From Thuidium tamariscinum (taxonomy: Eukaryota > Streptophyta > Bryopsida > Hypnales > Thuidiaceae), in the NCBI GenBank assembly GCA_947034885.2, contig OX344753.2, forward strand, positions 29,709,689 through 29,773,688: a DNA stretch of 64,000 bases, read 5' to 3'. The stretch's first letter is position 1. Every line of letters begins with the position of its first letter. The translations under genes were made by a program, and so were the position numbers. Of the stretch, positions 5,089 through 34,638 are shown piece by piece. The notes below the pieces were generated by a model, which saw only the letters and a program-made list of their open reading frames with translations, was not told the DNA's origin and ran no database searches.

Positions 5089-5101
5089 CAGGGTTGTTCT
5101 G
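5089..5101 (+). repeat. Left terminal inverted repeat
   Basis: CAGGGTTGTTCTG, exactly matched in inverse at 34626-34638; adjoining bases (GACAT after three variable bases) also match. Confidence 0.7.
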
Positions 5102-5275
5102 TTAGACATATTTTTGGGTTTCGGCGTCGTGTTAGACGTCCGATGTCGCGTGTCGTATAAGACAACCTGTCGCTACCCCGTCCCGTCCCGTCGCGCAAGG
5201 GTAAATTTTTTTACCGCGAAGTAAGAAGTTTTTGCCTACGTGGCAGGCTGTCCACGCTGACGTGGAAAGCGAGGC

Positions 5276-5570
5276 AGGGCGACTACGGGTGGGGTGACCG
5301 CGTCTCTAGTAAGGGCGACCGCGCATCCGATTTTCAGGGCGACAGCGGGTAGGCGACAGCGGGTGCAGAGGCGACCGCAGGTACCGGGCTCAGGCGCGAC
5401 CGCGGGTTAAAAATCCAGCGCGACTGCGTCTCTTTTGCGACCGCGGGTGCAATGGAAGGGCGACTTCGGGTATAGGGTGACCTCGGGTACAAGAGAAGGG
5501 CGACTTCTGGTTAGGGGCGACCTCGGGTGCAGGGCGACCACGCCTCTGTCTTTGATGGCGACCGCGGGTG
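5276..5570 (+). repeat. Left subterminal array of GGGCGACCGCGGGT-like units
   Basis: About 14 degenerate copies, mostly GGCGAC(C/T)(G/A)CGGGT separated by 2-15 bases, all in the same orientation and pointing away from the terminus. No TATA box or reading frame follows it, so this copy is purely terminal. Subterminal repeats are the known binding sites of hAT transposases; that role here is inferred. Confidence 0.75.
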
Positions 5571-7382
5571 TTTTTTACCCCTAAATGCTCAAGGCCTTTG
5601 GGGGAGTTTCTAGGAATTTGTTCTAATTTCTAAAGTGAAGAAAAAAATTACTTCATGATGAGCTTTAAGAAAGAAAATTTAAATGTAACCATTCTAATTC
5701 AAACTAGACATGTCAGAGATCATTTAGGAGAACAAAACATATATCACTTATGGATTGAAAGATTATAATGTTTAATCACTATAGTGTCCAAATTGCCAAA
5801 GAGATTTGAAGTCATTCAACCCTCCGTTTACAAGTCTAATCTAAAAAGTTTATGATTAAAAAAAACGGGATGAAAGGGCTTTACAAGCATAACCCCGGTC
5901 AATTTATCGCTTCTCAAAATGTACTCTACAATCTTTTTCCTATATAATGTACAATTCCAATAGACTTTAATTTTGTTTGAAGCGTATACCGAGCTTGCCT
6001 TATAGAATGGTTTTAAAATATAACTACCATTTTCAAAGTTTATTTATAGCATTGTGACCTTTTAAACTACAATCCTTGATTATTACTACAGGTCTACACT
6101 TCATTGTAGTTTTCATTTTAAATAACAACAATATATTATACATTTTGAATTTTTTTCTTGTAGGGGTGTGAGGGTGTGCCTCTAAAGGACCTTTGTGTTT
6201 GTGGTGTATTGAATTGAATTGACACAATCATTAACCCGTAAAGCCCCGAATTGCATTTCTAGGGATCTCACTACCTATTGAATTTAATTTTCTTTTCTTT
6301 GAAATTTTGACACAACATGTGCCCGCAACTTAGGGGAAAAGGACCAACAATATAATCCCTTTTGACTACACGATCAAAAAGTTAGGACATGACGTGTTGT
6401 TTCCTTTAAAATTGTGCGTAGCCCGGGCACCAAAAAAAAACTTCTTTAGAAATTGTGACATTAAGAAATAAAAATTTGAAATATCTTTATTAGATTTTTA
6501 TCTATGTGTAAACCTTTGAATCATTCCATTTCAATACATGAGTCAAAAGTTATGAGGAATTTTAGTTTGGGGTAGTCAATGGGTACTTATAGAATCTCTA
6601 CTCTACCAAAAAAGTTTGAAATTCTTTATTCCATTCAATTTTTTATATTTTTGAAAAAAAAGTGAAACATTGGATGAAGATTGTTTCTTACAATACTTTA
6701 ACTAAAGTAATTGGCATTTGTCATTTTTATAAATAATTTGTTGACAACTTAGTATTTTCAAGCATTTTCTATTTTTTTGTTGGTTTCTAACTTAATGTTT
6801 TTTCTCCCATATGTTGAACAATTCCAAATGATTACAAATTTGTAGAATGTAGAGCATACATACCACTTTGATTCTAATATGAGTTTAAAGAATAACCATC
6901 AATTTTGAGTGTTTTTTATACTAATGTCACCTTGTCAAGGGCAATTGGCCAATTGCCGGAAAAAAAGGGGTTTTGCTAGTACAAATGTTAATATCTTGCA
7001 ATGTGCATGGTGAAGATTTTCACCACATCTTCTGAAACCATCCCACAAGAATATCTCACCATTTCATATGTGACAACAAAAATTTCAAAAACATTGCACT
7101 TGTATTACAAAACGCAATTTTGGAGCAATTTGGGTAGAAATATACTTAGTTAAAAATCTGTGAGGTTAACCAACTAAACCAAAGGCTAGAAAATAATAAA
7201 ATAACCCCAAAGTTAATATGTCGAAATACGATGAAAATGCCTAGTAAGGTGCTACAACATATCAATATGTAAGGTACTAAACTACTAGGCTATAAACTTC
7301 CGCTAGAAATCTTTTCAAAAAAACATTTTTGGAAGATACAGTGGGACTAATTTACCTTCCAAACAATTGGACTAATATCTAG
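5571..7382. other. Gene-free AT-rich stretch inside the transposon
   Basis: No reading frame, RNA gene or tandem repeat stands out. The only local feature is an 18-bp perfect palindrome built on GGCAATTGG at 6940-6957. The stretch forms the 3' side of the transposase gene. Confidence 0.5.
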
Positions 7383-10300
7383 TTACAAACAAAAATCTGA
7401 ATCGTTCTGCACTTCGTCAGCATCAGGGTCCGTATCTTCGCGCGATGCGTAACCAGCGTCTGTGTCGCTATCGTGGCTTGAGCTGTCATTCTCGTCCTCT
7501 TCTCTTGTTATTGGTTCTGGTCGTATTTCTCTTTCCACCTCCGAGGTCAAATTCCGCACAACTATGTCTTGACCACCAGGAATCGCAGTCTGGACTAGTC
7601 GTTTTGTGGGACGCGTTGCATCAATAATTCCATCAACTACAGATTCAGGACCTGCTTGAACCGCTATTGATTGGCTTGATTGCTGGACCGCTTGCGTGGA
7701 GCACCCTGCCCCAAGCCTACAAGGTTCCACAATTTGATTTGCGCGCTTCGGATGTCTGTGTGTCCTTTCATCTACTCTTCTAATGCGCCTTTTTTTACTT
7801 CTGTCTCTATTGTTGCTGTTGCGTAGTCGTTCTTCCAACGATATTTCTCTTGGCTCAGACACTGGAGTTGGTTGGGTGGCTTGTGGAGCGGACTCGGGGA
7901 CTTCTTCATTGATGCTGGATAGTGGACCTCCATCTAAAGGCGTCCTTGTCGATGAACTAGGGGCCGATCTTCTGACTCTACCTTGGCTTGTATCTTCCCC
8001 TCTGGGCACACGGCCCCTTATAGAAGGAGTTGTGACTGACCTTCTGACTGTAGTCTGCCCTGTATGTCCACCTCGAGTCAAGGAAACGTTCCGACTACGG
8101 TTGAGGATGGTATTCAGTGGCGCATCTGAATCATACTCAGCTGCCTCCGTTGTTTGTATGGTCGGTGAATTCATTGCTACCGAAATAGGAGTTACTTCTT
8201 CTACAACCTCTTCAATGTAATCCACCTCTTCTTCTGCTTCAATTCCCGCATTGATTGGTGCAATGTTTCCAATATTCATTGCTCTGCTTGAAGGAATACG
8301 TGTTGGTACTGGAGATGTTGGTACTGGAGATGTTTCTTGAACATCTGAGGCAGGCATTTGATTATCTGCTTGTTCGTTGTTGTCAGAAGGTGTTCTTGCC
8401 GCAGTTCGTGGTGAAACTGTGCCCCAATTTCCGACCCACGCATCATCAGGGTTCCGCTGTGGAGAATGAAAAAGTTCTTCCTCAGCAACACCTTCCGCAT
8501 CATTGCCACTTGCAAATGTGTTTCCATATCGATATGGCGGTGGACTTGGTGGAGGTGGGACCATATCTGCCCATTCATTGTGATCGCGCAAGAGATCTTC
8601 TTCTTCTCTTCGGACTAAATTATCTTCGATAAAATCAAAATAACCCTCGTCCTCCGATCCTGAAGGCATAGGCTCGTCCCTCTCTTCATCAGTGTCTCCA
8701 TCCACGAGGACCCTTTCATAAAATTGAGCAGCATTGTACCCACGCTTTTGACGTTCCAAGTGGCAGTTAGCATAAATGTACACCAAATCTTGAGCCTTCT
8801 TTGTGGTCAAACGATTTCGCGTTTTACTGTGCACGAATGAATACATGCTCCAGTTTCGTTCACATGAAGATGCTGAACAAGTCAACCCTAGAATTCTCTT
8901 TGCAATCTTCGGAAGAGCATCGCCGCCTACATGATTCCACCATTGATGAGGTTCTAAATTGGTCTCTGTGATGTCGAGAACCTCTTCTCGGGGATCAAAT
9001 GACCCTGTCTTCTCCTCAAATTGGACAAGCTCTTGCATTGCCACGACCACTGAAACTCCTAATGATGGAGCTAGTTTTCGTATGACTCGATTCAAAGCTG
9101 CTTTGGCCGCCCCATCGTTTTGAATTTCTTCTACTCCTGCCAAAAACGGATTCAAGAGTGCTCCTGCATAGTGGAGGTCCGTTCGCATTAACTTCCAACG
9201 AGCTTCAAATTTCTTCTCGTAACGCGTTGCAACCACAGGGTCTAAAAGAAATGGAGGATCCCTGAGAGCATACACGTGTTTCTTCAACTCGAACATTATC
9301 AACCAAGCTTTTGGCATTGCTGGTTTTTTGCCATCAAAGTGTCGTAGAGCAACGAGTACTGGCTCTATCATAAACACGAAATTCTTGCATTTTGACCAAA
9401 ACCTTTCAGAATGAATGTTTAGCCGAACATCCATTGCTTTGCGCCTAATGGTACCTCCATTAGTCCGATTCTGCAAACTGAACTCGAAGGTCATGTAAGC
9501 GTCATCTGCAACCACGGTTTGCAAAGCTTGTTTGCAATCGAGCAGGCGGTCTACCATAAGGAAATTGGTGGCAAACCATGTCAAAGTAGGCAGCCTAAGC
9601 ATTTTGTTTGGAGAATGTTTCTGAAACAAAGCCATAGTGAAATGGTATTTCCTGATATGCTTCACCATTGTCCTACACTCGCTTACCAAATCCTTCATCG
9701 TTTGAGACTTTCCCCAATCTTCCAAAAGCAAATCCAAGATGTGAGCCGCACACCCTTGTTTGTACATGTGGGGATATTTCAGTAACAAACATGACATAGT
9801 TCCAATCATTACTGAAGCATTGTCTGTACACAATTGCACAATATTTGAAGGACCGGCCTTGTCTATGTACTTCGACATTAAAGCTGTCGTGTAGGCAATG
9901 TCCTTCTTCGCTTCCGTACTGTCCTCTGATCCCAAAAACACATCCCCTGCTGGACAAACGAGCATCACATTCATCAACGGCCGCCTATTGGTATCTGACC
10001 ACCCATCTGAACAAATAGTTGCTCCAGATTGCGCAATACAGTTCTTTGTCCGGTCATTGACCATTTTTTGGACAACTTCTTTCTTCACATCAATCATCCT
10101 GGTACGCAACGCGTTGAATGCTGGTGGACGATATAAAATTCCAGCTGCTGCAGTTTCCTTCACTGCATTTATAAATGCAGGGTGTCGCGTGACGTTGAAT
10201 GCAATATTGGCTTCATAAAAAAATGAAGCCCACGTCGCATCCAACTTTTGTCTCAAGCCTATTTGTAATGCTTCATCCATACTTCTTTGACGAGAAACCA

Positions 10301-10781
10301 CAGGGCGGCTTCCTGTTCTGTCAACCGTACTTGGAGTAGAATCCACTGAATTTGGGGTAGGGTTTGTCGGGCCGGTTGGACCCGTTGGATTTGAAGAACC
10401 ACCCACCTCACCACCCTCTACCTCTTGAATGAGGGATTGTGCCGCACCAATGGCCTCATTGCCCACAAATGGTGTTTCAAACAATTCTTCAAAGCTCATG
10501 GCTTTTGGAACGTTTCCGCCGCAAGTCATAAACTTTTCACGTGCACTTCTAGGGATTTTTGGACAACGTTCTGCTGTTGCCGAGCCACCATATCCAAAGT
10601 GACTAAATGCCCTTTTCCGCACAAAGACTTTGCTCCACCCGCAAAACAAGCATTTCCGAGGATAGGGTGAATGATCATTTGGAACGCATGGTATAAGCCA
10701 AGGGTCCCAATATTTTGTAGCCCTACGCGTATCGGGCCGACCTTGACCACCACCTGGGACAACCATGGTGTGAATCCACAA
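7383..10781 (-). CDS. hAT superfamily transposase, DUF659 type, with a long C-terminal tail
   Basis: Intact 1132-residue frame. Residues 44-73 form a BED-like zinc finger (C44, C47, H61, C73). A DUF659/RNase H-like core follows: ATICSDGWSD at 254-263 (candidate catalytic D259), DVFLGSEDST at 280-289, and VQLCTDNAS at 315-323 (candidate D320). Next come CAAHILDLLLED at 344-355, LHYAGALLNP at 536-545, and the C-terminal hAT dimerisation signature with SSCERNWS at 638-645 and TRNRL at 654-658. Such proteins are usually about 600-800 residues. Here a further ~450 residues follow the dimerisation region, acidic and rich in Ser/Pro/Arg with no recognised fold. The transposase would cut and paste the element in the nucleus by binding its terminal and subterminal repeats. 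The ATG at 10781 and the one five codons inside are both possible. All core motifs look intact, so activity is conceivable. A GC-rich array and TATA box lie upstream. Confidence 0.9.
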   Translation of the reverse strand: MWIHTMVVPGGGQGRPDTRRATKYWDPWLIPCVPNDHSPYPRKCLFCGWSKVFVRKRAFSHFGYGGSATAERCPKIPRSAREKFMTCGGNVPKAMSFEELFETPFVGNEAIGAAQSLIQEVEGGEVGGSSNPTGPTGPTNPTPNSVDSTPSTVDRTGSRPVVSRQRSMDEALQIGLRQKLDATWASFFYEANIAFNVTRHPAFINAVKETAAAGILYRPPAFNALRTRMIDVKKEVVQKMVNDRTKNCIAQSGATICSDGWSDTNRRPLMNVMLVCPAGDVFLGSEDSTEAKKDIAYTTALMSKYIDKAGPSNIVQLCTDNASVMIGTMSCLLLKYPHMYKQGCAAHILDLLLEDWGKSQTMKDLVSECRTMVKHIRKYHFTMALFQKHSPNKMLRLPTLTWFATNFLMVDRLLDCKQALQTVVADDAYMTFEFSLQNRTNGGTIRRKAMDVRLNIHSERFWSKCKNFVFMIEPVLVALRHFDGKKPAMPKAWLIMFELKKHVYALRDPPFLLDPVVATRYEKKFEARWKLMRTDLHYAGALLNPFLAGVEEIQNDGAAKAALNRVIRKLAPSLGVSVVVAMQELVQFEEKTGSFDPREEVLDITETNLEPHQWWNHVGGDALPKIAKRILGLTCSASSCERNWSMYSFVHSKTRNRLTTKKAQDLVYIYANCHLERQKRGYNAAQFYERVLVDGDTDEERDEPMPSGSEDEGYFDFIEDNLVRREEEDLLRDHNEWADMVPPPPSPPPYRYGNTFASGNDAEGVAEEELFHSPQRNPDDAWVGNWGTVSPRTAARTPSDNNEQADNQMPASDVQETSPVPTSPVPTRIPSSRAMNIGNIAPINAGIEAEEEVDYIEEVVEEVTPISVAMNSPTIQTTEAAEYDSDAPLNTILNRSRNVSLTRGGHTGQTTVRRSVTTPSIRGRVPRGEDTSQGRVRRSAPSSSTRTPLDGGPLSSINEEVPESAPQATQPTPVSEPREISLEERLRNSNNRDRSKKRRIRRVDERTHRHPKRANQIVEPCRLGAGCSTQAVQQSSQSIAVQAGPESVVDGIIDATRPTKRLVQTAIPGGQDIVVRNLTSEVEREIRPEPITREEDENDSSSHDSDTDAGYASREDTDPDADEVQNDSDFCL

Positions 10782-10992
10782 TGAGTTTCACCCCCAAAAA
10801 ATCGATCCAAGAATCCAGTAACGAGGAAAAAGTTATGACAATGCTACCTACTGTGAGAGGGTTTTTAAACCCCCTCAAAGCAAGGCTCTTGCCCTCCAAT
10901 GAACCAAAACATCCGCAAGAAGCCTCTTTCGAAGGTTCAAGGCTAGAGTCTAATCACTGAAGCAAGGTAATCCCTCAGTGTTTCAGCTGCAG

Positions 10993-10999
10993 CTTTATA
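10993..10999 (-). promoter_or_regulatory. TATA box of the transposase gene
   Basis: TATAAAG on the minus strand, immediately at the gene-proximal edge of the GC-rich array and about 210 bases before the ATG. This is the same arrangement as the cargo genes. The downstream leader does not carry the TGGCTGAATGCATG-like motif shared by the others. Confidence 0.6.
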
Positions 11000-11002
11000 C
11001 TC

Positions 11003-11560
11003 TGTCGCCACAGGGGCGACTGCGGGTACAGGGCGACTTCGGATGAACAGGGCGACCGCGGGTGCAGGGCGACCGCGGGTAATGGGGGCGACGGCGCCTG
11101 CAAGGACGACCGCACGTACGAGGGCGATCGCGTGTGGAAGGGCGACCGCGGGACAGGGTGAGGAACTGCAAAAAATGACCCGCGATCGCCCCAAGCACGG
11201 TCGCACTCCCCGGACGGGCGACCGCGCATGGACGGGCGACCACGCATGGAGGTGGCGGTTTAGGTTCTGGCACCGGAGGTCGCCCCTGACCCGCAGTCGC
11301 CCCAAGCGCGGTCGCACTCCCCGGTCGGGCGACCGCGCATGGACGGGCGACCGCGCTTGGAGGTGTCGGGCGGTAGTTCTGGCACCCGAGGTCGCCCCTG
11401 ACCCGCGGTCGCCCCAAGCGCGGTCGCACTCCCCGGACGGGCGACCGCGCATGGAGGTGGCGGGCGGCAGTTCTGGCACCCGAGGTCGCCCCTGACCCGC
11501 GGTCGCACCTTTGCAGGTTTTCAATTTTTGGAAAGCGCGGTTGTTGTACACGCGGTCGCC
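11003..11560. repeat. GC-rich array upstream of the transposase gene
   Basis: Units of GGCGACCGCGGGT in both orientations. The outer part contains a larger repeat of about 111 bp (starting near 11176, 11288 and 11399, then truncated at 11495) that includes GACCCGCGGTCGCCCC and a GGCACC(C/G)GAGGTCGCC segment. Reading frames over this array are repeat translations, not genes. Confidence 0.75.
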
Positions 11561-12021
11561 TTACAGGACCAGCTGGCCTGAGCAAGGTGGACAGTTATTA
11601 ACCTAGCTGTAACAGGTATTATTTGAGAGATTCGGAGATTCTTCCTAGTTCCACATTATATCCCACTTCATTCTCATTAAAAGCAGCATCTAAATTACTA
11701 TGTAGCAATAGTTACTCCAAAGTGATTTACCATTTCATGCACATAGAAGCTTTTAAAGGTATTTCCAACCCCTTCACCACCAAGCCCTATTGGCTCTTTC
11801 TCCAAGAAATCATGAACCTTCAAACCTCAATAAAAAATATCATACTTTTACTTAGGAATGTTGAGTTCTATGAGAGCTCAATTATGGAGGAGGACAACCC
11901 TCAATTTCATGATATTTCAAATGCTTAATCCCTAAAGGACTAAGAAGATACAATGTGTCATCTTCAAAGTTTTCAATGGCAATTTCTTGTAAGGGTGAAG
12001 CAAATCTCAATATGAAACAAA

Positions 12022-12670
12022 GGGAATGTAATATTTTTGGGATCTCAGTATTAGACTTAGATTAGTGGGAAAAAAAATGGGAAGACAAAATTTTAAAAAA
12101 TGACAGTTATTCAAAAATGTATACTTGAACTTCTACCAAAACATTATGGAGATAGAGTTTCTATTAAAATTCAATGGAACCCCCCCCCCTAGTACTTTAA
12201 AAAAAAAGGAAAAGTAATATTTTTGAGATCTCAATATTAGACTTAGATTATTGGGGAAAAAAATGGGAAGACAAAATTTTAAAAAATGACACTTATTCAA
12301 AAATGTAAACTTGAACTTCTACCAAAACATTATGGAGATAGAGTTTCTATTAAAATTCAATGGATCCCCCCCCCCTAGTACTTTAAAAAAAAAGGAAATG
12401 TAATATTTTTGAGATCTCAAAATTAGACTTCGATCAGTTGAAAAAAAAATGGGAAGACAGAATTTTAAAAAATGATACTTATCCCAAAATGTATACTTGA
12501 ACTACTACCAAAACATTATGGAGATAGAGTTTCTATTAAAATTCAATGGATTACCCCCCCCCCTAGTACTTTAAAAAAAAGAAGGGAATGTAATATTTTT
12601 GAGATTTCAATATTAGACTTAGATTAGTTGAAGAAAAATGGGAAGACAAAATTGAAAAAATATGGCACTT
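12022..12670. repeat. Tandem repeat of ~186 bp, about 3.5 copies
   Basis: Units begin near 12022, 12208, 12394 and 12584 with GTAATATTTTTG. Each has a run of 9-10 C followed by TAGTACTTTAAAAAAAA. Copies are highly similar apart from scattered substitutions. The first three are 186 bp apart and the fourth 190. Confidence 0.85.
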
Positions 12671-15498: not shown

Positions 15499-16895
15499 CT
15501 ACTTGCTTTGTTCATCTGTCTTTAGCCTTTTCTTAGCTTCCAAGTCTTTCTTCGCCTCCTTGTAGGCACTATCCAAATTGGATTGAAGAGGAAAATCCCA
15601 CCATTTATTTTTCATGTACTCTTTCTTCAAATTCAGTGCATTGAGCAAATTCATCTTCTTCTTCTCCACTTCCCCGGCCACATCACTTTCCAATGCGAGA
15701 GCATGGGCTAACTTCTTCTTTAGGTCCTCTGCTTCCAACTTCAATGTCTCATGTTGCCTCTCATGATCTTCAGAATCTTGTATATCAACAATACGATCAA
15801 GAGGGGCTTTGTCCTTCATTTTCTGAAGGTCATGTAATTTTGATTGTGCACCTTCAAGAGATCTTTTTTCATTTTCCAAGCAGTCAGCTTCGATGTGACA
15901 ATCTTCCTTGAGTTTAGCCAATCGTTCTTCTACAAATTTGTTAGTTGAAGAACTAGAACCTTCACCCCCTGAAACGGAGAAGTTCAGATAGAGTGCTTCC
16001 AAGTTCAAGATTTGCTCATGTTGCTTGGACAACTGAATTCGTCCCGATTCAATGAGGGCTTGAAGGGTTGGAACATCATCAGAAGTATCAGTCACTGCCC
16101 CTTCCTCCAAAGTCCTTTCTCTTCATTTGCTCTATCCAACTCTTCAAGCACACTCTCCAATTGAACTTTATAAAAGTCGTTCAATGGAATATCGTTGTTG
16201 GCCTCCACACTTGCAGCTTCAACAGATCCTTCAATTCTTGGCATCCCTTCCAATGAAGGCAATGTCAACGTGGGGCCCGCCTCCACTTCCCCCTCCTCCA
16301 AAGGCTCCAAATTAGCCAATGTCTCACCCACATGTGGCAGTCCAACATCCATCAACTCATCTTCACTACTTTCGTGATCCGACCACACGAACTCATTGTT
16401 CGGAACTTCATTCTTGATGAAAATCTTTTTCCCTAAACCTTCACGTGGGTTTTGGGAGGGACCCGCCCTAGGAATGTCCTTGGTTGACGGTTTTTGGACA
16501 AGCTTTGCTCCCTTAATGGTGCTCCAATCCACCCTTCGTCGAAGAATAACTTCCGCGTACACCATCTCACACAGAAACAAGGGAATTTCATTCCGAGGCA
16601 CACTTCGTGTCTTGTACAAGTATCGATATACTTCGATACATCTTTGTACAAATCCATCGTGAGTGCAAGCATGAAGATTTGCCATATTTGACTTCAAGTG
16701 GATTTTGTATCGATGATAGGGGAAAAGCTTATCGATGTGGCACCATTGTACAAATGCCCTACAAGTGGTCGCGGTCCAAAAGCCTTCGATCCTCTCCCAA
16801 CCTCCATGAGCCACGACATTAGAGTCCACAAGGACGTGTCGTTGTCTTTTTTGCATCTTGCCTTTGGCTTTACGGTTCCTCCGGGTGGCGTCCAT
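15499..16895 (-). pseudogene. Cargo family member A (WCH/VDW domain), frameshifted
   Basis: From the ATG at 16895 the frame encodes a basic start (RRNRKAKGK) and the family domain: W51-C52-H53 with DKLFPYHRYK, then a VYAE helix and VDWST at about residue 123. Acidic sequence follows, ending in a stop at 16092. The next ~200 residues (16110 down to 15499) are in another frame that overlaps by 19 bases. They form a long charged coiled coil like the C-terminal halves of the relatives, so a single-base indel near 16100 splits one ORF. A very short intron is a less likely alternative. A TATA box lies at 17092-17085 behind a GC-rich array. Not recognised as a known family; RING finger absent. Confidence 0.65.
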
Positions 16896-17000
16896 TGGAT
16901 TGAAGTAGATGGAGGTATTAAAAAATACCAAAATGCAACAATAGCTGCCCCAATAGATGCACGAACCACACAATCACAGTAAAAAAAACCCAAGTACTGG

Positions 17001-17014
17001 ACACGCAGTCAGCC
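17001..17014 (-). promoter_or_regulatory. Shared leader motif of the cargo promoters (gene A)
   Basis: TGGCTGACTGCGTG on the minus strand, about 75 bases after the TATA box. The same motif occurs at the same distance in genes B, C and (weaker) D. Confidence 0.5.
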
Positions 17015-17059: not shown

Positions 17060-17345
17060 TGGGCGAATGCGGATGGGGCGACCACTTATAAACCCGATGT
17101 CGCCTGGGGCGCGTGCGTTCCGTGCGAGGGCGACTGCGGGTAGGGCGAGTGCGGGAAGGGCGACCGCGGGTCCTTTGAAGGACCTGTTTTGCGGTCTGGG
17201 CGAGTGCGCGAAGGGCGACCACGGGAAAGGCGACCGCGGGTCCTTCACAACAGTGGCGACCGCGGGTAGGGCGACCGCGGGTCCTTTTACGAGGTCATTT
17301 ATTTCTGAATTTCCCGCCTTCTGACTTGGGCGACCACAGGTTGTT
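17060..17345 (+). repeat. GC-rich array 5' of cargo gene A
   Basis: About 12 units of the GGCGACCGCGGGT type, mostly in the + orientation. The TATA box of gene A sits inside the gene-proximal end. Beyond 17345 the sequence returns abruptly to AT-rich DNA. Confidence 0.75.
17085..17092 (-). promoter_or_regulatory. TATA box of cargo gene A
   Basis: TTTATAAG directly after a GGCGACATCGGG unit, about 190 bases before the ATG at 16895. Confidence 0.55.
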
Positions 17346-20469: not shown

Positions 20470-21330
20470 AGCGACCGCCTTTAGAGCGACCACACTTCAC
20501 AATTTATTTATTTATTTTGAACCAAAGGGGCAAGCCCTTTGCATGAAGAAGCTTAACAAAATTTGCAAACCCTGAAAGTAAGGCGACCGCGGGTAAGGGG
20601 CGACCGCGCCTCAAGGGCGATCGCCAGTGCCACAAGTTGCGTCAGAACACACTACCATTCCAGGCTCGATCGCCCCTTAAGAGAATATTCTATTTACTAA
20701 ATAGGTTTCATCCAGTGTCCCGCAATGCTCTATCAGCAGGGTTGAAGTTCGAGTTTCAACGAGACATTTCTCGATTTTATCCATCTTTAGAAGTTTTTTG
20801 TTGTAGACATCATAAACTCGATTGAAAACATGATGAGCACTTTTCACTTGCAGCTCCGACGACACGGGATTATCTCGACACTTGGCAGTGCACAGCACAA
20901 TTGCCTTCCCGAGCAAAACTTCCACCACATTCTCATTCTCAACTCCCTTGATACTGCCTTGCGATATAAACACCTCCTTCCCGGCCTTGCGTGGAGGAAG
21001 CTCTTTCTTCAGAGTAAGGGAGCTCCTCAAACGCGGTCGCCCCCCAACCGCGGTCGCCTCCCAACCGCGGTGGCCCCCCAACCGCGGTCGCCTCCCAACC
21101 GCGGTCGCCCCCCAACCGCGGTGGCCCCCCAACCGCGGTCGCCACCCATCCGCGGTCGCCCCCCATCCGCGGTCGCCCCCCAGCCGCGGTCACCCCCAGC
21201 CGCGGTCGCCCTCCAGTCGCGGTCGCCCCCAGTCGTGGTCGCCCTACCCGCGGTCGCCCTACGCACCCGAGGTCGCCTACCCGCGGTCGCGTCTGGATCC
21301 GCACGCGCCTGGGGCGACTTCGGGTACTTA
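20470..21330. repeat. GC-rich arrays 5' of the kinase-like gene
   Basis: Short + oriented runs at 20470-20500 and 20580-20665, then about 15 units at 21030-21330, mostly in the reverse orientation (CCGCGGTCGCC with C-rich spacers, period ~19-20). The last unit flips to GGCGACTTCGGG directly before the TATA-like box at 21325. The two parts are separated by a coding-like segment (20677-21020). Confidence 0.75.
20677..21020 (-). pseudogene. Captured coding fragment between arrays, unrecognised
   Basis: On the minus strand about 115 codons are open and read like a folded protein (for example GKEVFISQGSIKGVENENVV and TAKCRDNPVSSELQVKSA), ending at a TAA near 20677. Upstream the frame runs into the GC array, where translation is only repeat. 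It has no TATA box of its own. It may be a host exon captured by the transposon or the relic of another cargo gene fired from the array in the opposite direction. Function not recognised. Confidence 0.35.
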
Positions 21331-21412: not shown

Positions 21413-21512
21413 CCCGTGGGCCGGGGTCCTTTATTCGATTTTGGGGGGATTTTTTTGTCATTTTGATCTATAAAATTCCTCAAAGCTACGGTGAAGCTTT
21501 CGATTACACGCA

Positions 21513-23168
21513 ATGTCCAACCCAATAGAAGATGGCGACGTGAGGCACAAAGGTGTTTTGGATACTCATCCAATATTCTCAGAAATGCCTAATCCCACAG
21601 AGGGTACCAGTACCTTGAGGCGAAAATCCCTTTGGGATTTGGATGATCCACAACACTTTCTAGAGCCTATATTTACAAGCGAAACAACAGGGAATGAAGC
21701 TCGATTGAAGAAAAAGAAGTCCAGGTCTGCTCATGATAAGGATCCAACATATCCTCCTTCAAGTTATATGAAGTATGCATACGAGGTGTGCCTTCAATGG
21801 TACGCTGGCAAAAGTGTACAATTTTTGGAGGCAAACTATTTGAGGGATGCTGGAACAGGCACGGAGAAGCTGACGGGGGATTTGGAGGCCCGAATCTTAA
21901 GCAAGTGTTATGAATCAGAGGACTTCAAAGACGTGGACTTAACGTACAATTCCAGATTTTGTGATTGGATGACTGATACTATTCAGGCAGTAACTTTTAA
22001 TACCAAGAAATTGATGATAGAGTTCCGTGCACCAACCACAGGACGAGTGGAAGATGAAGAGGCAAAGGAATTCCGTGCAAAGATGGAGTGGTGGCATACT
22101 GCGGCCAAGAGATTGTCAAAGTTTGGATCGAGGGGTTTCAAGTGGAAAAATGACGCTGTGAAGGCTGCATTTGCAAGAGATGGTGGAGTGAGTATCATAT
22201 GGATTCCACCCACGGCAAAGGTTGAGGCCCTCGGTGGTTTTTCTCGTGAAGGTGGCCACGGAAAGGTGCGAAAGGTTCGAATAACAGGTCTAGATACCAT
22301 TCCACCAAATATTGCTCTTGCGGGGAAAATGCCAAAAACGAAGGACTTGCGTGATCAACAGGTGGAGCGGTCCGTAGAGGCCTTGGCATGCCCTTTAAAT
22401 CATGCAGGCTTAATTAAGTTTTTTGCCTTAAACTCAATTACCATGGAAGCATATACATTGTGGTGGAATGGAGGTCATTTGGGTGACTTACTGAATGTGG
22501 ATAAGCTGGTGTCACGAACTACTGAATGGCACGAAGTACATCGAATCAGAGAACTTCCTGAAGAGAAACAAAAGGAAGTTAGCCTTTTTCGAAGGCATAA
22601 GGCAAAGTTGGCATGGACCTTGGTGTATGTGACTCACCTCATGCACCAATCATCAGTGCTACACAACGATTTATCTCCGAGAAATGTATTGTTGCACTAT
22701 CCTGATTATTCAAATGAAATAATCAACATTGGGATTTGTGATTTCGGAATTACAAGCCGTGTAAACGAAAAAGCCCCATCGCATTATGGATATCCTACCA
22801 AGGAAGAGACACGGAAGCAACAAGAGGGACGATGGTGGGTGGCTCCAGAGTTGTTTTATACATTTGGACCACCTAATTCGGATACAAGCATACCAATTAT
22901 GCAATCGAGGCATAAATATACAAAGCAGTCAGACTCGTATTCTATTGGAAAGCTGGTGGAAGCTATGAAGATTGGGGATATGTATCCTTTTGACAAAGAG
23001 ACATTCACAACGATGGATGCATGTAGGTATTTTGCTATGAAGGTGGGCCAACTCAAAAATGAAGATCTGAAGGAGAGACCAACATGTACAGAGGTGGTGA
23101 ATTTGGTCCTGGGGCCTCCATGGTATATGAAGCCTCCAACATTTGTATTGCGCGATTCCCCCCTGTAG
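21513..23168 (+). CDS. Protein-kinase-like cargo gene B
   Basis: Intact 551-residue intronless frame. Residues 1-235 are unrecognised and charged. A eukaryotic-type kinase fold follows: glycine-rich loop GGFSREGGHGKV at 241-252, candidate ATP lysine K272, catalytic loop HNDLSPRN at 384-391 (HND in place of HRD, with D386 and N391 kept), CDFG at 409-412, APE at 444-446, the helix-F aspartate in SDSYSIGKL around D474, and the late arginine R522. All residues normally needed for phosphotransfer are present, so it could be active; substrate unknown. It lies inside the transposon under the same array, TATA and leader module as the other cargo genes. Kinase domains are not part of hAT transposition machinery, so this is captured cargo or an accessory factor. 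It ends in tandem stops, TAG TGA. Confidence 0.8.
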   Translation: MSNPIEDGDVRHKGVLDTHPIFSEMPNPTEGTSTLRRKSLWDLDDPQHFLEPIFTSETTGNEARLKKKKSRSAHDKDPTYPPSSYMKYAYEVCLQWYAGKSVQFLEANYLRDAGTGTEKLTGDLEARILSKCYESEDFKDVDLTYNSRFCDWMTDTIQAVTFNTKKLMIEFRAPTTGRVEDEEAKEFRAKMEWWHTAAKRLSKFGSRGFKWKNDAVKAAFARDGGVSIIWIPPTAKVEALGGFSREGGHGKVRKVRITGLDTIPPNIALAGKMPKTKDLRDQQVERSVEALACPLNHAGLIKFFALNSITMEAYTLWWNGGHLGDLLNVDKLVSRTTEWHEVHRIRELPEEKQKEVSLFRRHKAKLAWTLVYVTHLMHQSSVLHNDLSPRNVLLHYPDYSNEIINIGICDFGITSRVNEKAPSHYGYPTKEETRKQQEGRWWVAPELFYTFGPPNSDTSIPIMQSRHKYTKQSDSYSIGKLVEAMKIGDMYPFDKETFTTMDACRYFAMKVGQLKNEDLKERPTCTEVVNLVLGPPWYMKPPTFVLRDSPL

Positions 23169-23459: not shown

Positions 23460-24560
23460 TTATGGGTGATTGCATGAAACACTTGTACTGCTGTGTTGCA
23501 TCATGTTTTGTGGTGACTAGTTTTTTAGCCATAACTTATGTTTTTTAGCTCCAAATGATTCAAATTTTAAAAAATGGGTACTCATAACTATTATACATCA
23601 TTTAGAATTTTTGAAGATTTAAAAAAAATATTTTACTATTTTTAAATAGCCCCCAATTTTTTGTCACATATTCCAATTTAGGGGTTTTTAGTACTATTTA
23701 GAACCCCAAAAAAAGAATTTTGAGCTGAAATTTTGAGAGAATGTTTTTTTAGTAGAATTATAGCTTACCTCCAAAGGAATTATAAAAATAGTCATTTTTT
23801 GGATGTATAGAAGTCCACAAAGAGACCTTCTTTCTACTTGCTTTTTGAAACATATTAAACATTTTTTTGGTGATTTTCTTGGTCAAGCCTTATCACCAAA
23901 AAATCTTCTCAAATGGCCAATTTTTATTTTTATTTTCAAAAATGTTTTTTATTTTTTATTAATTAGAACATTGAAGTATGTATTTTCTTCACCGGAATTC
24001 TATGTGTTCTATGTCCAAAATCCTAGTGAAGAAAAATACAACTTCAACATTTTAATTTGTAAAAAATAGAAAAAACAAATTTAATGAAATCTAAAAATTG
24101 GCCATTTGAGAAGACTTTTTGGTGATAAGGCTTGACCAAGAAAATCACCAAAAAAATGTTTAATATGTTTCAAAAAGCAAGTAGAAAGAAGGTCTCTTTG
24201 TGGACTTCTATACATCCAAAAAATGACTATTTTTATAATTCCTTTGGAGATAAGCTACAAGTCTACTAATAAAATATCCACTCAAATATTCAACTCAAAA
24301 TTCGGTTTTCTGGGTTCTAAATAGTACTAAAAACCCCACAATGTCAAAGTGTGACAAATTAACAAAATTGAATTTTAAATATCAAATGTTTTTTTTTAAT
24401 TTGTAAGAAATAAGAATAATAATTTGAGTCAAGATATCGAGGAAGTGTTTTTTTATTTTGGACACTTAGTTTTTTATTCAAAAGTTAGAGCCATCTTAAA
24501 GCGGTCAACCCAAAAAAATGCAACAAATAGTACAAGTGTTTCGTGCATTCACCCTTAATA
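23460..24560. repeat. Foldback (long inverted repeat), arms ~470 bp
   Basis: The left arm (about 23465-23935) is inverted at 24090-24560. The inner ~250 bp (around 23690-23930 and 24095-24340) are nearly identical; the outer parts are more diverged. The outer ends read GGGTGATTGCATGAAACACT on the left and its diverged complement (ending CATTCACCC) on the right. No ORF in the ~155-bp loop. It would fold into a very long RNA hairpin, a natural source of small RNAs. Confidence 0.8.
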
Positions 24561-26204: not shown

Positions 26205-26237
26205 ATTTATAAAAATATTTTTTTCTTTTCTTTTAGA

Positions 26238-27601: not shown

Positions 27602-27770
27602 CGAAGGCGCGGTCGCCCATCCCGCAAACGCGCACCCGTGGTCGCGCACCCGCGGTCGCACCCCACGAACGCGCACCTTCCTGGACTCGCGGTCGCCTTG
27701 AATGCGCAGTCGCCCTTGCGCACGCGCCCTAGGCGACTGCGGGTACTTAAGTAGTCGCCCCGACCCGTAG
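27602..27770 (-). repeat. GC-rich array 5' of cargo gene C
   Basis: Units mostly read CGCGGTCGC on the + strand, with GCGCACCC spacers. The final unit GGCGACTGCGGG is followed by the TATA-like box. Confidence 0.7.
27744..27751 (+). promoter_or_regulatory. TATA-like box of cargo gene C
   Basis: TACTTAAG, identical to that of gene B and in the same position relative to the array. Distance to the ATG at 28086 is about 335 bases, longer than in the relatives; a 5' UTR intron is possible. Confidence 0.45.
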
Positions 27771-27814
27771 TCCACCTCCCTTGCTTTGCGCATTGACCTT
27801 CACCCACTTAGATG

Positions 27815-27828
27815 TGGCTGATTGCGTG
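27815..27828 (+). promoter_or_regulatory. Shared leader motif (gene C)
   Basis: TGGCTGATTGCGTG, 71 bases after the TATA-like box, preceded by TTCACCCACTT. Confidence 0.5.
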
Positions 27829-28085
27829 CCCGTGAGCAAGGGATTCCATACTTCACGTCGGGATTTGCCATTTTTGCGCTCGAGCTCTGCACATGCTTGG
27901 CATACTGTTATGTATGAGTATGTGCCTTTTTTTTTATAAAATTTTTTTTTTGTAAATGCATATAGGTTTGTAAATGTGTAGTTTGCTTGTTCTAGGGATT
28001 TAGGTTTTTAGAAAAGAACATTTTAGTCGTAGAACAATTAGTTAAGTTAACCATAGAGTAGCATAGTACTCAGGTAGCAATAGTT

Positions 28086-29582
28086 ATGGAGGATGAGACT
28101 GGAGCAGCCCAGCCTAGTACAGGTAAACCATTGACTTCACCACAGAAGAGGGCAGCTCGAGACAAGGACCGTAAAAGGAAGGGGAAATGTCACAAGAAGT
28201 GAGTGCCTCTCCTTCAACATCTAAAAATCAAGGCTTTTTTGGGTTGGAGGACTGAACCTGAGCCTTGGACTTACAAAACAGTCAACAAATATGTTGATTG
28301 GTGCCACATCAACAAGTTGTTTCCACATTGGCGCCACAAGATTCATTTGGGGCAAAACAAGGCCAATCTTGCATATTGCAAAGATGAAGACTTCACACTC
28401 AGATGCTTGGAAGTATGGATGAGGTTGTATGGGGAGACCAAGCCATATAGAAACGACAATTTCTGTTTCTTCCTGGTCCAAATGGTGTATGCTGAAAACA
28501 TATTGAAGAAAAAAGTGGACTGGTCAACATTGAAGGAGCTTCTAGTTGGAGACCATGTGGAAGAAGCATTTATTGTGGCAGAAGGTGAAACAATTGATGT
28601 GAAGAAGTCATTGGCACGAGTGAAGCCTGGGAAGTTAGCTGTTTTGGATGAAGACGTAGTATGGTCGCCTAATTCTAGCTCGGATGAACACACCCATGAA
28701 TACGATGGGTATAATTTCCAGAGCGACGATGAGGATGTTGGCATGGGCGACCAAAAAAAGGCCTTGGAGTTGGAACTTGCCAAGAAAGGCAAAAGAAAGG
28801 TGGAGGACCGAGGGACTCCATCAAACATCCCAAAACAAGTCAGGGAGGGTCATGAGCATATGGAAGTAGGCCAAAAAATTGTTGAAGGCCTCCAAGATGG
28901 GAGAGTAGGTGATGGAGAAGAGAGTGTGGACATTATCCAAGCTCAATTAGATTCAGCAATTGAGGCCTTGGATTTGGTGAAAAGACATGTGTTAGAATTG
29001 CGCCAAATAAGAGCATTGGAACTTAGTGCTGGCACAACTGCACACACCATCCCTATGTTGAAGGAAGAGATGAAGGCCATACATAGGGCCATCTCTGAAA
29101 ATGACGAGCGCCTAGCTTCTATGAAAAAAAATAGAGATCTTTATTACAAGAAGAAACAAGAGAAGCGTGGACACCCAATGGACGTGTATGCCATACTTCA
29201 ACAAAAATTGAGAATTCTTGAACGCGAACGTTGGCGGGTGCACAATGACGTAAGAGTCCTCAATCGGCAAATAGATGAGGAAGAAAAGACCAACTACGTT
29301 GCTGCTCTACAATGTGCCTCAGAGCTAGATTTTCTTGCTATGGCTCCTCAATACGGTACCACAGAAGAAGAAGTATCAGTATTGCAGAAACTTGTAAAGC
29401 TACATGAGAAGAAATTTGTGGAATCAGTGAAAGAGGTGGGACAATTGGATTCACAAATTAAATTTGAGCACGCTTGGATGAAGTGGAAAGTGCGTACTAC
29501 AGCTCGAGGTGTTACTCGTAAAGACCTTGAAGAGATAGGTCCAGAACCCAAAGAAGAAGATTTTTGTAATACCACACGTTGA
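28086..29582 (+). pseudogene. Cargo family member C, one nonsense codon
   Basis: From the ATG at 28086 the frame is 498 residues with a single TGA at codon 39 (28200-28202). The flanks align without gaps to gene D, where the matching residue is arginine in THRKRLHVL, so CGA changed to TGA is the simplest explanation. The bases around the stop also match a splice donor (GTGAGT), but an intron there would break the alignment. Domain: V70-DWCH with NKLFPHW and NKANL, ending in KVDWST at about 143-148. An acidic linker follows and then long coiled coil (about residues 280-420), with no RING finger. If the stop is not bypassed, only a 38-residue peptide or a product from an inner start would be made. 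Stop codon of the frame: TGA. Confidence 0.65.
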
Positions 29583-31470: not shown

Positions 31471-33945
31471 CTAAACATTTGGGTCTTCATGTGCATTGCT
31501 TGATTCACCACGCTCGTGGTTGGATGATTCTCCAACCACAAGTTTGCGCTTGGCGCGAGTGCGTGAAGCTGGTCCATTCGCATTTAGAATGGATTCTAAG
31601 ACGTTGGAATCCTTCAAGGCTTGGAGGGTCCTCATGGTCTGTGGAGAGTGTTTCTCCAACAAATAGTCAACAGTTTGACTCGTGTAGTAGGGCCCATATG
31701 TAGAGTCCAGCAATGCCATACTAGTAAGATCTTCTTCAGAGGCATTTGCAGTCTGGTCGCACACTCTTTTTCCTTCAAAATCCCAACAGTGACATTCCGA
31801 ATGACGTCCCCACATGAAGCTTTGTGATTGTTTATCGAAAAATCCACCAAGGCATTGGAAAAAAAATGCCCTTCGTCCCTCGTTCTGTGGACCGTTTCCC
31901 ATGAGCTTGGATGCAACTTGCACGATCTCTTCTGGGTCAGTTTCCCAATTCAATTGAGAACTATCTGTGCCCTTTTCTTGATCATGTTGGCCTTGTCGCC
32001 AACTCCAAATCAGGTCTCGGCCCCATAATCTGGTCTCCGGAGTTGTGTCACCTGTGTGTTCCCAAGAGGGCGGCATATATGTCATCAAGTTGAACAAGGC
32101 GTATAAACGATCATGGAATGGGGCTGAACAAATAACACAACGTCTCCGTATGAGGCATTGTGTAATTAGACATTGAGGATGGTATACGTGCACGCATGAT
32201 CCAAGTGCCCATCCTCCTTCAGGGCCGAAGGATTCTTGACATATAGGACATTTTGTATGGTCCAAAACAAAAGTTGCTGGCTTTGGCCACAAAAGTTGTC
32301 GTTGTTTCTCATCTACGTGGCACGACATCTGGTTTTTGTGGTCCCAACCAAGCTGTGTCCAATTGATTCCTTCATTTCCAGGGGTGTTCAACATAGGCAT
32401 ATTCTCAGGAAACATGTCCTCCATAAATGCCCACGATGTGAGTCCATTCTCACGTTTAGGGGCATTTGCGACAAAGTTCTTTGAAATTTTGTCCAACTCC
32501 TTTGCAACTTGCTGTGATCTGTCCACGGAGAGAATGCACGCAACCTTCCAGTGATAGTATGTTGCTGCCAACTCATTCAATCGTGCACGAAGCATCTTGT
32601 TTTCCTCTCGAAGGCCTAGTTTCTTCGGAGATGGTACCGGTACTGGGAGTGAAAGTGATGGAAATGAAAGTGAATCTTGAGTCTCGTGAACACCATCTGC
32701 CCCCATGATAGCATCTTCCGTGACGGTAGGCAAAATCGTAGCTGGCAATACTGAAGAACGTTTGACACGCTTGCCAGGAGGAGTACACTCAATGAGACCG
32801 CTAGTGAGGTCTTCCACGACCCTCTCCAAATGATGAGGATCATGTTCAATGAAACCTTCGTCCATATCTGACAAAGTAATCGTCTCATGTTGTTTTTGTC
32901 GAAGGCGTTGAAGTTCTTTGGCTTGTTCTAAAATGAGAGCATTCTTCTGGTCCAAATTTGATTGCAATTTCTTCACATCAGATTGGAGTGAAGCAATTGT
33001 CGTGTCTTTGGTCTTCAAGAGGTCAAGAGCCTTATTGAGAGCCGTGGTTGAATCCCCTTGAGCTAAAAGAACAGGAATGCTCGCATCCACAGGCGTTTCA
33101 TCATTTGGTTCGAAGTCGAAGACATCGGTCGCATTTTGCAGTGGTAATGATGGACTGCGAACTGTTGCTGAGGTCGATCCAAGTCCGATTTGATTCGGCG
33201 AGCGTGGAACCTTAGAGGGGCGTCTAGGTTTCCGTCTTCGTGATGATGAAGCTCCTCTGACAGCTGGATCTTGAATTACTGGTACAGGGGCAATTTGTGG
33301 AGCAATCCGTATTGGCCTTGGAGCATGTGTGCCATCGGAATCGCTATCTTCTTCAGATTCCGATGTGATAACTTCAATGACACTCTTATCGAAAGGATCT
33401 TTTCGAATTGGTCCAAGTCCACCCTCCGGAAACTTCAAGACTCCTCTTGGTATTGATCCAATTTCTGGAGGTGAAACATACATACTTTCCTTGATGGTGG
33501 ACCAATCCACTTCTTTTTTTAGAACCACCTCAGCATACGCTCCTCGAGCAATGGAAAGCGTGACTTCATTCCTTTCTACAAAAGGAGTGTTGTAGAGGAC
33601 TTGCCAAATTTCGATGCACCTTTGAACAAAAGCTGGATTTTCACAATATTTCAAGTTCGCCTTGTTTGTGTGCCGATTGTGATGATGGCGCCATGCCGGA
33701 AACAATTTCCCAATGTGACACCATTCAATGTAGTCTTCGCACATTTGAATTGACCAAGGCTCCTCCTCCTCACTCCAGCCTTTAAATGCGGGGTGATCAG
33801 GATTGTTCAGCACGTGTAATCGCTTGCGATGAGTATTGCCTCTGCACTTCCGATTTTTGTCTAGTATAGACTTCCTCGCAGCATAAGTGATTCGTGTATT
33901 GCGTGGAACAACGGGGGGCACCTCCGGGGTCTGCTCTGTAGCCAT
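31471..33945 (-). CDS. Cargo family member D: WCH/VDW domain plus RING-H2 finger
   Basis: Intact 824-residue frame and the full-length reference for the family. Residues 24-45 are basic. The family domain spans about 55-155 (W75-C76-H77, KLFPAWRH, TNKANL at 93-98, AYAEVVLKKEVDWST at 137-150). Acidic and basic linkers follow, then a coiled coil at about 310-350. A canonical C3H2C3 RING-H2 finger follows: C566, C569, C584, H586, H589, C592, C603, C606. A ~220-residue tail lies beyond. RING-H2 proteins are usually E3 ubiquitin ligases; that activity is inferred from the metal ligands only. The paralogues A and C lack the finger, so D may be the ancestral or functional form. It reads inward from the right end of the transposon; TATA box 34109-34102. 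Confidence 0.8.
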   Translation of the reverse strand: MATEQTPEVPPVVPRNTRITYAARKSILDKNRKCRGNTHRKRLHVLNNPDHPAFKGWSEEEEPWSIQMCEDYIEWCHIGKLFPAWRHHHNRHTNKANLKYCENPAFVQRCIEIWQVLYNTPFVERNEVTLSIARGAYAEVVLKKEVDWSTIKESMYVSPPEIGSIPRGVLKFPEGGLGPIRKDPFDKSVIEVITSESEEDSDSDGTHAPRPIRIAPQIAPVPVIQDPAVRGASSSRRRKPRRPSKVPRSPNQIGLGSTSATVRSPSLPLQNATDVFDFEPNDETPVDASIPVLLAQGDSTTALNKALDLLKTKDTTIASLQSDVKKLQSNLDQKNALILEQAKELQRLRQKQHETITLSDMDEGFIEHDPHHLERVVEDLTSGLIECTPPGKRVKRSSVLPATILPTVTEDAIMGADGVHETQDSLSFPSLSLPVPVPSPKKLGLREENKMLRARLNELAATYYHWKVACILSVDRSQQVAKELDKISKNFVANAPKRENGLTSWAFMEDMFPENMPMLNTPGNEGINWTQLGWDHKNQMSCHVDEKQRQLLWPKPATFVLDHTKCPICQESFGPEGGWALGSCVHVYHPQCLITQCLIRRRCVICSAPFHDRLYALFNLMTYMPPSWEHTGDTTPETRLWGRDLIWSWRQGQHDQEKGTDSSQLNWETDPEEIVQVASKLMGNGPQNEGRRAFFFQCLGGFFDKQSQSFMWGRHSECHCWDFEGKRVCDQTANASEEDLTSMALLDSTYGPYYTSQTVDYLLEKHSPQTMRTLQALKDSNVLESILNANGPASRTRAKRKLVVGESSNHERGESSNAHEDPNV

Positions 33946-34020
33946 GAGATAAGTTGGTGTTCAAAACACCAATAAGGAAACGTGGATGGATGAAGAAAGA
34001 AGTAATTATTCAACCCGAAG

Positions 34021-34037
34021 TTAATGCATGCAGCCAA
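34021..34037 (-). promoter_or_regulatory. Shared leader motif (gene D, weaker)
   Basis: TTGGCTGCATGCATT on the minus strand, about 75 bases after the TATA box, resembling the TGGCTGAATGCATG motif of genes A-C. Confidence 0.4.
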
Positions 34038-34101
34038 TGAAGGATGCAAGACGAAGAGCCTCGATGGAGAATTAAGGTACCAATGCCTTGTGCGAGCACG
34101 G

Positions 34102-34109
34102 CTTTATAG
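34102..34109 (-). promoter_or_regulatory. TATA box of cargo gene D
   Basis: CTATAAAG on the minus strand, at the gene-proximal edge of the array and about 160 bases before the ATG. Confidence 0.6.
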
Positions 34110-34125
34110 GCGCGAGTACGGGTAA

Positions 34126-34480
34126 AATCCAGGGCGCGTGCGAATCAGAGGCGACCACGGGTGGCGCCAGGGCGACTGCGGCTAGAGGCGACTGTGGCTT
34201 AGGGCGACCGCGTATTGGAAGGGGGCGACCGCGGGTCCGAGTAGGGCGACCTCGGGTGCGGATGGGGCGACCGCGGATGTGGGGGGGGCGACCACGGGTC
34301 CTTGAAGGGCGACCGCGGCTGCGCATGGGGCGACTTCGGGTGAGCCGCGGTCGCCTAATCCTACAGTCGCCCCTAGCGCGGTCGCCCCCACACTAAACCG
34401 CTACCCGTGGTCGCCCTAGCCGCAGTCGCCCCGACCCGCGTTCGCCCTATCCGCAGTCGCCCTACCCGCATGCGCCCTAA
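34126..34480. repeat. Right subterminal array and promoter array of gene D
   Basis: The inner part (to about 34340) has units in the + orientation, facing away from gene D. The outer part (34345-34480) has units in the reverse orientation, so that, read from the right terminus, they point inward as at the left end. The change of direction suggests a promoter array joined to a terminal array. Confidence 0.75.
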
Positions 34481-34625
34481 TTTTTGCTACGCGGGCATCC
34501 AGGTGGCATTATTTTCCACGTGGTAATTTTTAAAAAGTCAAAGGTAAATTTGACTTTTATGGACGTCGCGGAGGGTCTACTGGACGTTTCGTGACGTCGC
34601 AATGTCGCGATGTCGCAATGTCCGG

Positions 34626-34638
34626 CAGAACAACCCTG
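34626..34638 (-). repeat. Right terminal inverted repeat
   Basis: CAGAACAACCCTG, exact complement of the left end. A GACGT/GTCGC-rich segment (34560-34620) and an ACGTGG word lie just inside. Confidence 0.7.

Follow-up and report, generated by a model that had tools for sequence, protein, structure and literature searches.

We analyzed a 64,000-nucleotide stretch of the Thuidium tamariscinum genome (Bryopsida; contig OX344753.2 of GCA_947034885.2), hereafter the window, which corresponds to C5:29709689-29773688 of the 363.2-Mb, 19-contig assembly that served as the search space. Contig C19 of this assembly, about 115 kb long and taken to be the plastid, carries rbcL, whose frame reads as that of a green plant. 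A first-pass annotation, made from the sequence alone, had proposed that positions 5089 to 34638 form a giant, cargo-carrying, hAT-like transposon with perfect 13-bp inverted CAGGG termini around a DUF659 transposase gene, a kinase-like gene, and three related genes (here g2, g4, and g5; Table 1). These components were all recovered on reanalysis. The 13-mer CAGGGTTGTTCTG has exactly two exact places in the window, in perfectly inverted orientation. The transposase matches DUF659 (E = 2.3e-32) and Dimer_Tnp_hAT (E = 2.6e-07), both above the Pfam cut-offs; the kinase-like protein matches Pkinase (E = 4e-12); and the products of g2, g4, and g5 share a domain of about 150 amino acids (pairwise identity of 38 to 43% over 141 to 177 amino acids, E = 2e-28 to 9e-37). 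However, in 64 kb of uniform sequence chance alone would give about 30 exact inverted pairs of 13-mers. Because the 13-bp inverted match alone is at chance level, the case for an element rests on copies elsewhere in the genome.

Table 1. Features of the element at positions 5089 to 34638 of the window (+ and - counts in the remarks are motif sites on each strand)
Feature	Position	Strand	Remarks
Left terminal inverted repeat CAGGGTTGTTCTG	5089..5101	+	Exact match; 152-bp end matched 40 scored genome places at 99-100%
Left subterminal GGCGACCGCGGGT-like array	5278..5573	+	Inward; 13 + / 0 - sites
hAT transposase gene	7383..10787	-	1134-aa (amino acid) open frame; N-terminal Cys/His-rich segment, DUF659, hAT C-terminal dimerization region
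Array upstream of transposase gene	10994..11560		13 + / 11 - sites; TATAAA box at gene-proximal end
g2, paralogue of g4 and g5 (shared domain)	15499..16973	-	Frameshifted here; single 471-aa frame in family B
Array upstream of g2	17062..17344	+	10 + / 1 - sites; TTATAAG box
Array upstream of kinase gene	20582..21328	-	Main block 21026-21328, 1 + / 16 - sites; two + sites at 20582-20614
Ser/Thr protein-kinase-like gene	21495..23168	+	557 aa; HNDLSPRN and DFG motifs
Array upstream of g4	27602..27747	-	1 + / 5 - sites; CTTAAG box in block common to g4 and kinase gene
g4 (shared domain)	28203..29582	+	506-aa open frame in C6 copy; in-frame stop precedes this stretch in window copy
g5	31471..33960	-	829 aa; shared N-terminal domain and RING-H2-like finger
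Promoter-side array upstream of g5	34150..34342	+	Points away from g5; TATAAA box at gene-proximal end
Right subterminal array	34346..34461	-	Inward
Right terminal inverted repeat	34626..34638	-	152-bp end, 41 scored genome matches at 95-100%

Copies were sought across the assembly with both 152-bp ends and with the genes; only the best candidates were scored, and the copy counts are therefore lower bounds. The left end yielded 389 candidates (best 40 scored, all at 99 to 100% identity) and the right end 359 (41 scored matches at 95 to 100%). Among the scored ends, 18 left-right pairs stood in the correct order and orientation, 29.1 to 37.2 kb apart, with transposase, kinase, and RING genes between the ends. 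Under random placement, a mean of 0.3 (maximum 3) of 40 left ends were paired, with the lengths of contigs C10 and C11 assumed. Target duplications were examined for the pairs with both ends among the scored best. Exact 8-bp duplications flanked 17 of the 18 pairs, all 17 differing from one another, and equal 8-bp flanks occurred in none of 306 non-partner comparisons. The sole exception is the window copy. Its missing duplication had been named in the first-pass annotation as the weak point of the proposal; the absence is real at this copy, but as a weak point it dissolves genome-wide.

Scored gene matches numbered 41 for the transposase (95 to 100% identity), 78 for the kinase (72 in family A, to which the window copy belongs, at 90 to 100%, and 6 in a sister family, B, at 72%), and 55 for g5 (89 to 100%). 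When the five landmarks (both ends, transposase, kinase, and g5) were projected onto common coordinates, they fell at 99 loci, of which 60 held at least two kinds of landmark, 30 at least four, and 12 all five; the 39 loci with one kind of part include copies that are truncated, others with further parts too low in rank to be scored, and the type-C elements described below. A chance composite of two ends and unrelated nested repeats would fit the missing duplication at the window copy and the chance-level 13-bp match, but it does not account for copies whose parts are colinear and equally spaced between exact duplications, for a second copy 99.3% identical to the first, or for the empty site of the sister family. 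We take this composite to be refuted by the paired copies with duplications and give it a negligible probability. The hAT unit has multiplied recently.

The second copy, on contig C6, was read whole (29,612 bp; duplication CATTATGC), and its 99.3% identity to the window copy extends along its length. Transitions make up 156 of the 196 differences between the two (80%), and 77 of the 196 (39%) lie in CpG, as would be expected if the copies were methylated and decaying. Partial decay is evident in the window copy: its g2 is frameshifted (the C6 copy instead carries a stop in this gene), and the severed start of its g4 leaves 459 amino acids. Across the genome, 22 of the 41 scored transposase copies contain stops and 19 are stop-free; stops are also found in many scored kinase and g5 copies. 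Between the two family-A copies, the ratio of nonsynonymous to synonymous substitution rates (dN/dS) is 0.41 for the kinase, 1.16 for g4, and 0.79 for g5; the changes are few, and the ratios fit weak constraint on copies once inserted. For the transposase, the same comparison gives about 18 nonsynonymous and no synonymous changes. On contig C11, all nine scored family-A kinase matches are at most 97% identical and seven of the nine contain stops; this set looks old, as on a poorly recombining chromosome. An imperfect palindrome of about 690 bp (about 87%) lies downstream of the kinase gene at 23681-24358, as judged from the alignment of the two copies, in which this part of the window copy matches its C6 counterpart in inverted orientation.

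Family B, found through the six kinase matches at 72% identity, is represented by one fully read element (C2:123396-160149; 36,754 bp), with ends CAGGGTTTTCTC and CAGGGTTTTCTT, a terminal inverted repeat CAGGGTTTTCT(C/T), and an exact 8-bp duplication, GTAATGAA. Its g5-side end gave 344 candidates, the best 40 of which scored at 93 to 100%. The genes follow the family A order (g5, g4, kinase, g2, transposase), with the kinase gene inverted, and protein identity between the families is 70% for g5, 56% for g4, 72% for the kinase, 57% and 44% for two pieces of g2, and 62% for the transposase. This element is inserted in another repeat, whose open reading frames (ORFs) resemble a CACTA transposase, and copies of the host repeat are 69 to 89% identical to the joined flanks. 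When the flanks were joined with one 8-bp target copy, 38 of 40 scored matches ran through the junction at 69 to 89% identity, the remaining two being the two halves at the family-B locus itself. The empty site in paralogous host-repeat copies therefore identifies the 36.8-kb unit as one insertion. Of the polymorphic empty sites that the first-pass annotation had suggested looking for, empty sites were thus seen for the sister family, as paralogous host-repeat copies and not as polymorphism between individuals.

Judged by protein sequence, the accessory module consists of a predicted kinase and three paralogues of a domain without recognized relatives, a RING-like protein being among the three. 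The HNDLSPRN motif of the kinase is present in both families, with DFG in family A and DWG in family B. The finger of g5 follows the pattern CxxC-x14-CxHxxHxxC-x10-CxxC, and its eight ligands are kept in family B; it has a match in the PDB to RNF24 (E = 5.8e-05) and scores below the Pfam cut-off for RING (20.6 versus 27.3 bits, E = 0.00055). The domain common to g2, g4, and g5 returned no Pfam or PHROGs match for g4 and the longer g2 piece, and a profile search of PDB sequences gave a single match at E = 3.9. An AlphaFold model built from the three window sequences reached a predicted local distance difference test score of 71 and a predicted template modeling score of 0.69, with two of the five models near that level; this moderate-confidence model had no Foldseek match in the PDB at E ≤ 0.001.

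Selection on the module was estimated by the Nei-Gojobori method between the window copy and family B, with g2 taken as two pieces because it is frameshifted in the window copy. The resulting dN/dS values, which are rough, were 0.24 for the transposase, 0.14 for the kinase, 0.27 for g4, 0.22 for g5, and 0.25 and 0.54 for the two pieces of g2. With dN/dS below 1 for all five genes between families, this is a maintained module and not a set of passengers. An alternative is that a hAT element captured host genes that are useless to it (Pack-type cargo). That the kinase belongs to an ordinary kinase family and that many copies carry stops would suit such an origin, but passengers would hardly recur as all five genes in a sister family at 44 to 72% protein identity and with dN/dS of 0.14 to 0.54, or have promoter blocks in common between unrelated genes; we consider capture improbable. 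The earlier label "cargo-carrying" was right that extra genes are present but understates them, since they are conserved genes of the element.

The first-pass annotation had also considered that the two ends might occur independently in many short elements. This is not so for 30 of the 40 left and 37 of the 41 right ends, which lie in colinear clusters with other parts of the element. Reading 4 kb from five of the 10 unclustered left ends revealed no exact right 13-mer within 3.9 kb of any of them. One of the five belongs to family A and has an array that is repeated in part; the other four, here type C, share only about 255 terminal bp with family A (about 94% identity), are about 97 to 99% alike over their longest mutual alignments, and have no transposase similarity in their first 3.9 kb. 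The type-C element at C9:1004759 has an A-like right end about 18.5 kb away, ending in CCCTA, without a matching duplication. One type-C element holds a 9-kb motif array (C9:1010179-1019108) with 206 matches to a looser pattern, together with short kinase-like fragments (37 to 43% identity over 48 and 28 amino acids). Type-C elements may be trans-mobilized relatives. The same could in principle hold for the window element, were it a nonautonomous unit moved by another hAT transposon with the same ends and its resident transposase a bystander. Such ends may be used in trans, as type C suggests by its lack of transposase similarity in the first 3.9 kb, and 22 of the 41 scored transposase copies have stops; yet 19 of the 41 are stop-free, and the transposase has been constrained between the families (dN/dS 0.24). 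We judge a bystander transposase quite improbable.

Among the five element ORFs scanned against Pfam (the longer piece for g2), we found no tyrosine recombinase captain, whose gene (DUF3435) is the hallmark of Starships, and no DNA polymerase B, integrase, or capsid, whose genes are the hallmark of Polintons/Mavericks. These results also bear on a viral origin, in which hAT ends would surround an integrated block of viral genes, as in Teratorn. Size and multigene content are compatible with this, as are kinase and RING genes, which also occur in large DNA viruses. However, no capsid, polymerase, or packaging family was found by Pfam among the ORFs scanned, no herpesvirus-type gene block was seen in the five ORFs, the phage-family library PHROGs gave only kinase or unknown-function matches, for the kinase gene, and no close kinase relative was found in viral contigs when the kinase protein alone was tried, by peptide patterns. 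A viral derivation is very improbable.

The element has a hAT transposase, 8-bp duplications (exact in 17 of 18 family-A pairs and in the one family-B element read), short inverted termini, and subterminal arrays, and we place it within hAT. Termini of hAT elements are short and inverted and begin with CA(G)GG, a form that the ends of both families fit. Excision and reinsertion by cut and paste would show here only indirectly, in the near-identical dispersed copies and in the empty site of other host-repeat copies.

To describe the arrays, the motif GGCGACCGCGGGT was scored with a position weight matrix (PWM) derived from the window's own 85 core instances, with family B as an independent test. 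In both families, each end has an inward-pointing array and each gene has an array upstream of it. The first-pass annotation had described inward-pointing subterminal arrays confined to the element. Both ends do have them, and none of the 89 PWM sites in the window lies outside the element, but 75 of the 89 sit within 900 bp upstream of a gene, which had gone unremarked; 29 are no more than 600 bp from an end (at g5 the two classes share sites), and 1 falls in neither class. Family B has 92 sites in the element, of which 61 are upstream of genes, 28 near ends, and 21 in neither (19 of these form a single orphan array), and 2 of the 94 sites at the locus are outside the element. The arrays are gene-linked: they precede five of five genes in A and in B, and five randomly placed windows each contained at least two sites in 4 of 20,000 trials for each family.

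Upstream arrays are mostly directed away from their genes. Plus/minus site counts are 1/16 for the family-A kinase gene, 1/5 for A g4, 0/9 for the B kinase gene, 1/13 for B g2, and 1/8 for the B transposase gene, all on the plus strand, and 10/1 each for A g2 and B g4 on the minus strand. At g5, the promoter and terminal arrays adjoin as two blocks in two orientations in both families. A TATAAA, TTATAAG, or CTTAAG box stands at the gene-proximal end of the array in all five family-A genes (measured from the start of the open frame). Furthermore, the promoter/leader blocks of the kinase gene, g4, and g2 (A and B together) match in 11 of 12 between-gene pairs, at 67 to 84% over 43 to 123 bp and with E down to 4.9e-19, even though the kinase protein is unrelated to g2 and g4. 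This pattern suggests that one promoter cassette was copied to several genes.

Taken together, these results make it highly probable that positions 5089 to 34638 represent a single copy of a giant cut-and-paste hAT transposon of the autonomous type, with an accessory module that would be co-regulated through the motif marking the ends of the element. That the unit exists and is conserved is near certain. We have moderate confidence in the regulatory half, in which a common motif would serve the ends and gene control, and the roles proposed below for the accessory proteins are guesses.

Several observations weigh against this interpretation. The window copy has different flanks (GTTCCAGT on the left, CATAGAAC on the right), and a pattern spanning both expected reciprocal junctions had no matches, so its reciprocal partner was not found; we reject reciprocal exchange as the cause of the missing duplication, and a flank rearrangement or aberrant transposition is possible. 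Genome-wide co-occurrence of genes covers the transposase, kinase, and g5 only. Synonymous divergence between A and B is about 0.9 to 1.3, which makes the dN/dS values rough, and constraint on the C-terminal half of g2 is weak (0.54). As for the arrays, family B has an orphan array of 19 sites (C2:143672-144265) with no gene recognized beside it, so the presence of an array does not guarantee a gene; at the transposase gene of family A, motifs point both ways (13/11); the box is clear in three of the five family-B genes (g5, kinase, and transposase), with none matched at g2 and that of g4 inside the motif range; and some of the similarity between promoters comes from the array motif, since the blocks contain it.

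If the interpretation is correct, the DUF659-type transposase would bind the terminal repeats and the inward motif arrays, pair the ends, excise the element, and insert it with an 8-bp staggered cut. A motif-recognizing protein, most simply the transposase through its conserved N-terminal Cys/His-rich segment and possibly one of the three paralogues, would also bind the arrays before the genes. All five genes might thereby be switched together, with repression when the sites fill or become CpG-methylated, and the kinase and the RING-like protein could act on the transposase or on host repair or silencing factors. We propose, tentatively and with somewhat less than even confidence, that an element-encoded DNA-binding protein reads one CpG-rich motif at the ends and at the duplicated promoters of five genes, and that the kinase, a RING-type ubiquitin ligase, and the paralogues are co-expressed for efficient excision of about 30 kb and for countering host silencing. 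If true, such a self-run circuit would amount to a virus-like organization at which an ordinary cut-and-paste transposon, lacking virion genes, had arrived.

Ac/Ds, Tam3, and Tol2 have a hAT transposase with a C-terminal dimerization region, short inverted ends, 8-bp duplications, and subterminal motif arrays, all of which the moss element has as well. Unlike these elements of about 4 to 5 kb with the transposase alone, it measures 29.5 to 37 kb, its transposase is accompanied by four more conserved genes, and every gene has its array. The hAT elements known to us carry the transposase alone or captured passengers. We found no report of a multigene giant plant hAT element in the open-access literature searched, which is weak evidence of novelty. 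Tol1 and Tol2 are 4.4 and 4.7 kb long (PMC10175614). The fungal ToxhAT is 14.3 kb, with a hAT-like transposase and eight ORFs including ToxA; it has 74-bp terminal inverted repeats, lacks an identifiable target duplication in all isolates sequenced, and has been described as a composite (PMC6737239). Like ToxhAT, the moss element is large and hAT-like with several ORFs; in contrast to ToxhAT, it is flanked by exact 8-bp duplications, is present in many copies, and has a gene set that is conserved across two families. In rust fungi, TET+ hAT7 and TET/alpha-kinase IS3EU are cut-and-paste elements with accessory genes, hAT7 having 7-bp duplications and an added TET/JBP gene, and IS3EU an alpha-kinase in conserved order (PMC12730594). 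The moss element likewise adds accessory genes to a cut-and-paste transposon, a kinase type being included in IS3EU too, but its five-gene module, RING gene, and promoter arrays set it apart from these as described. Enlarged En/Spm families of Chondrus crispus reach 16 to 20 kb with four or five ORFs (PMC6431247). They too are a multigene enlargement of an ordinary superfamily, although of another one and shorter.

In maize Spm/En, one motif is both the subterminal binding site of the transposase protein TnpA and a regulatory site near the promoter. Whereas Spm/En has one promoter near one end, the moss element has five spread over 29 kb. With Starships, Polintons/Mavericks, and Teratorn it has in common being a giant eukaryotic mobile element with many genes. 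Starships use a tyrosine recombinase, Polintons/Mavericks a DNA polymerase and an integrase, and Teratorn combines piggyBac with a herpesvirus; none of these enzyme families was found in the element ORFs scanned.

Cut-and-paste transposition is reported to lose efficacy above about 6 kb of cargo (PMC6431247). Here, a hAT lineage of 29.5 to 37 kb has multiplied to dozens of near-identical copies, with its accessory set under selection across two diverged families. The lineage brings within reach of experiment how a DNA transposon of this size keeps moving and what accessory proteins that takes, and it provides a natural vehicle for large DNA loads. The layout of an array before every gene would be a clear case of one motif for end recognition and coordinate transcription.

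Outside the element, split open frames on the plus strand at 46623-49225 contain an "INGQHS" stretch reminiscent of ParB/DGQHR-type proteins, and two ORFs scanned there had no Pfam match. Two further genes, at 755-2470 (plus strand) and 61186-61983 (minus strand), are related to each other at 37 to 42% identity. Their resemblance to the shared domain of the element is weak (BLAST E = 0.09 or worse; hhalign probability of 6.5%, E = 0.0056), and we do not claim kinship; they look like parts of another repeat family.

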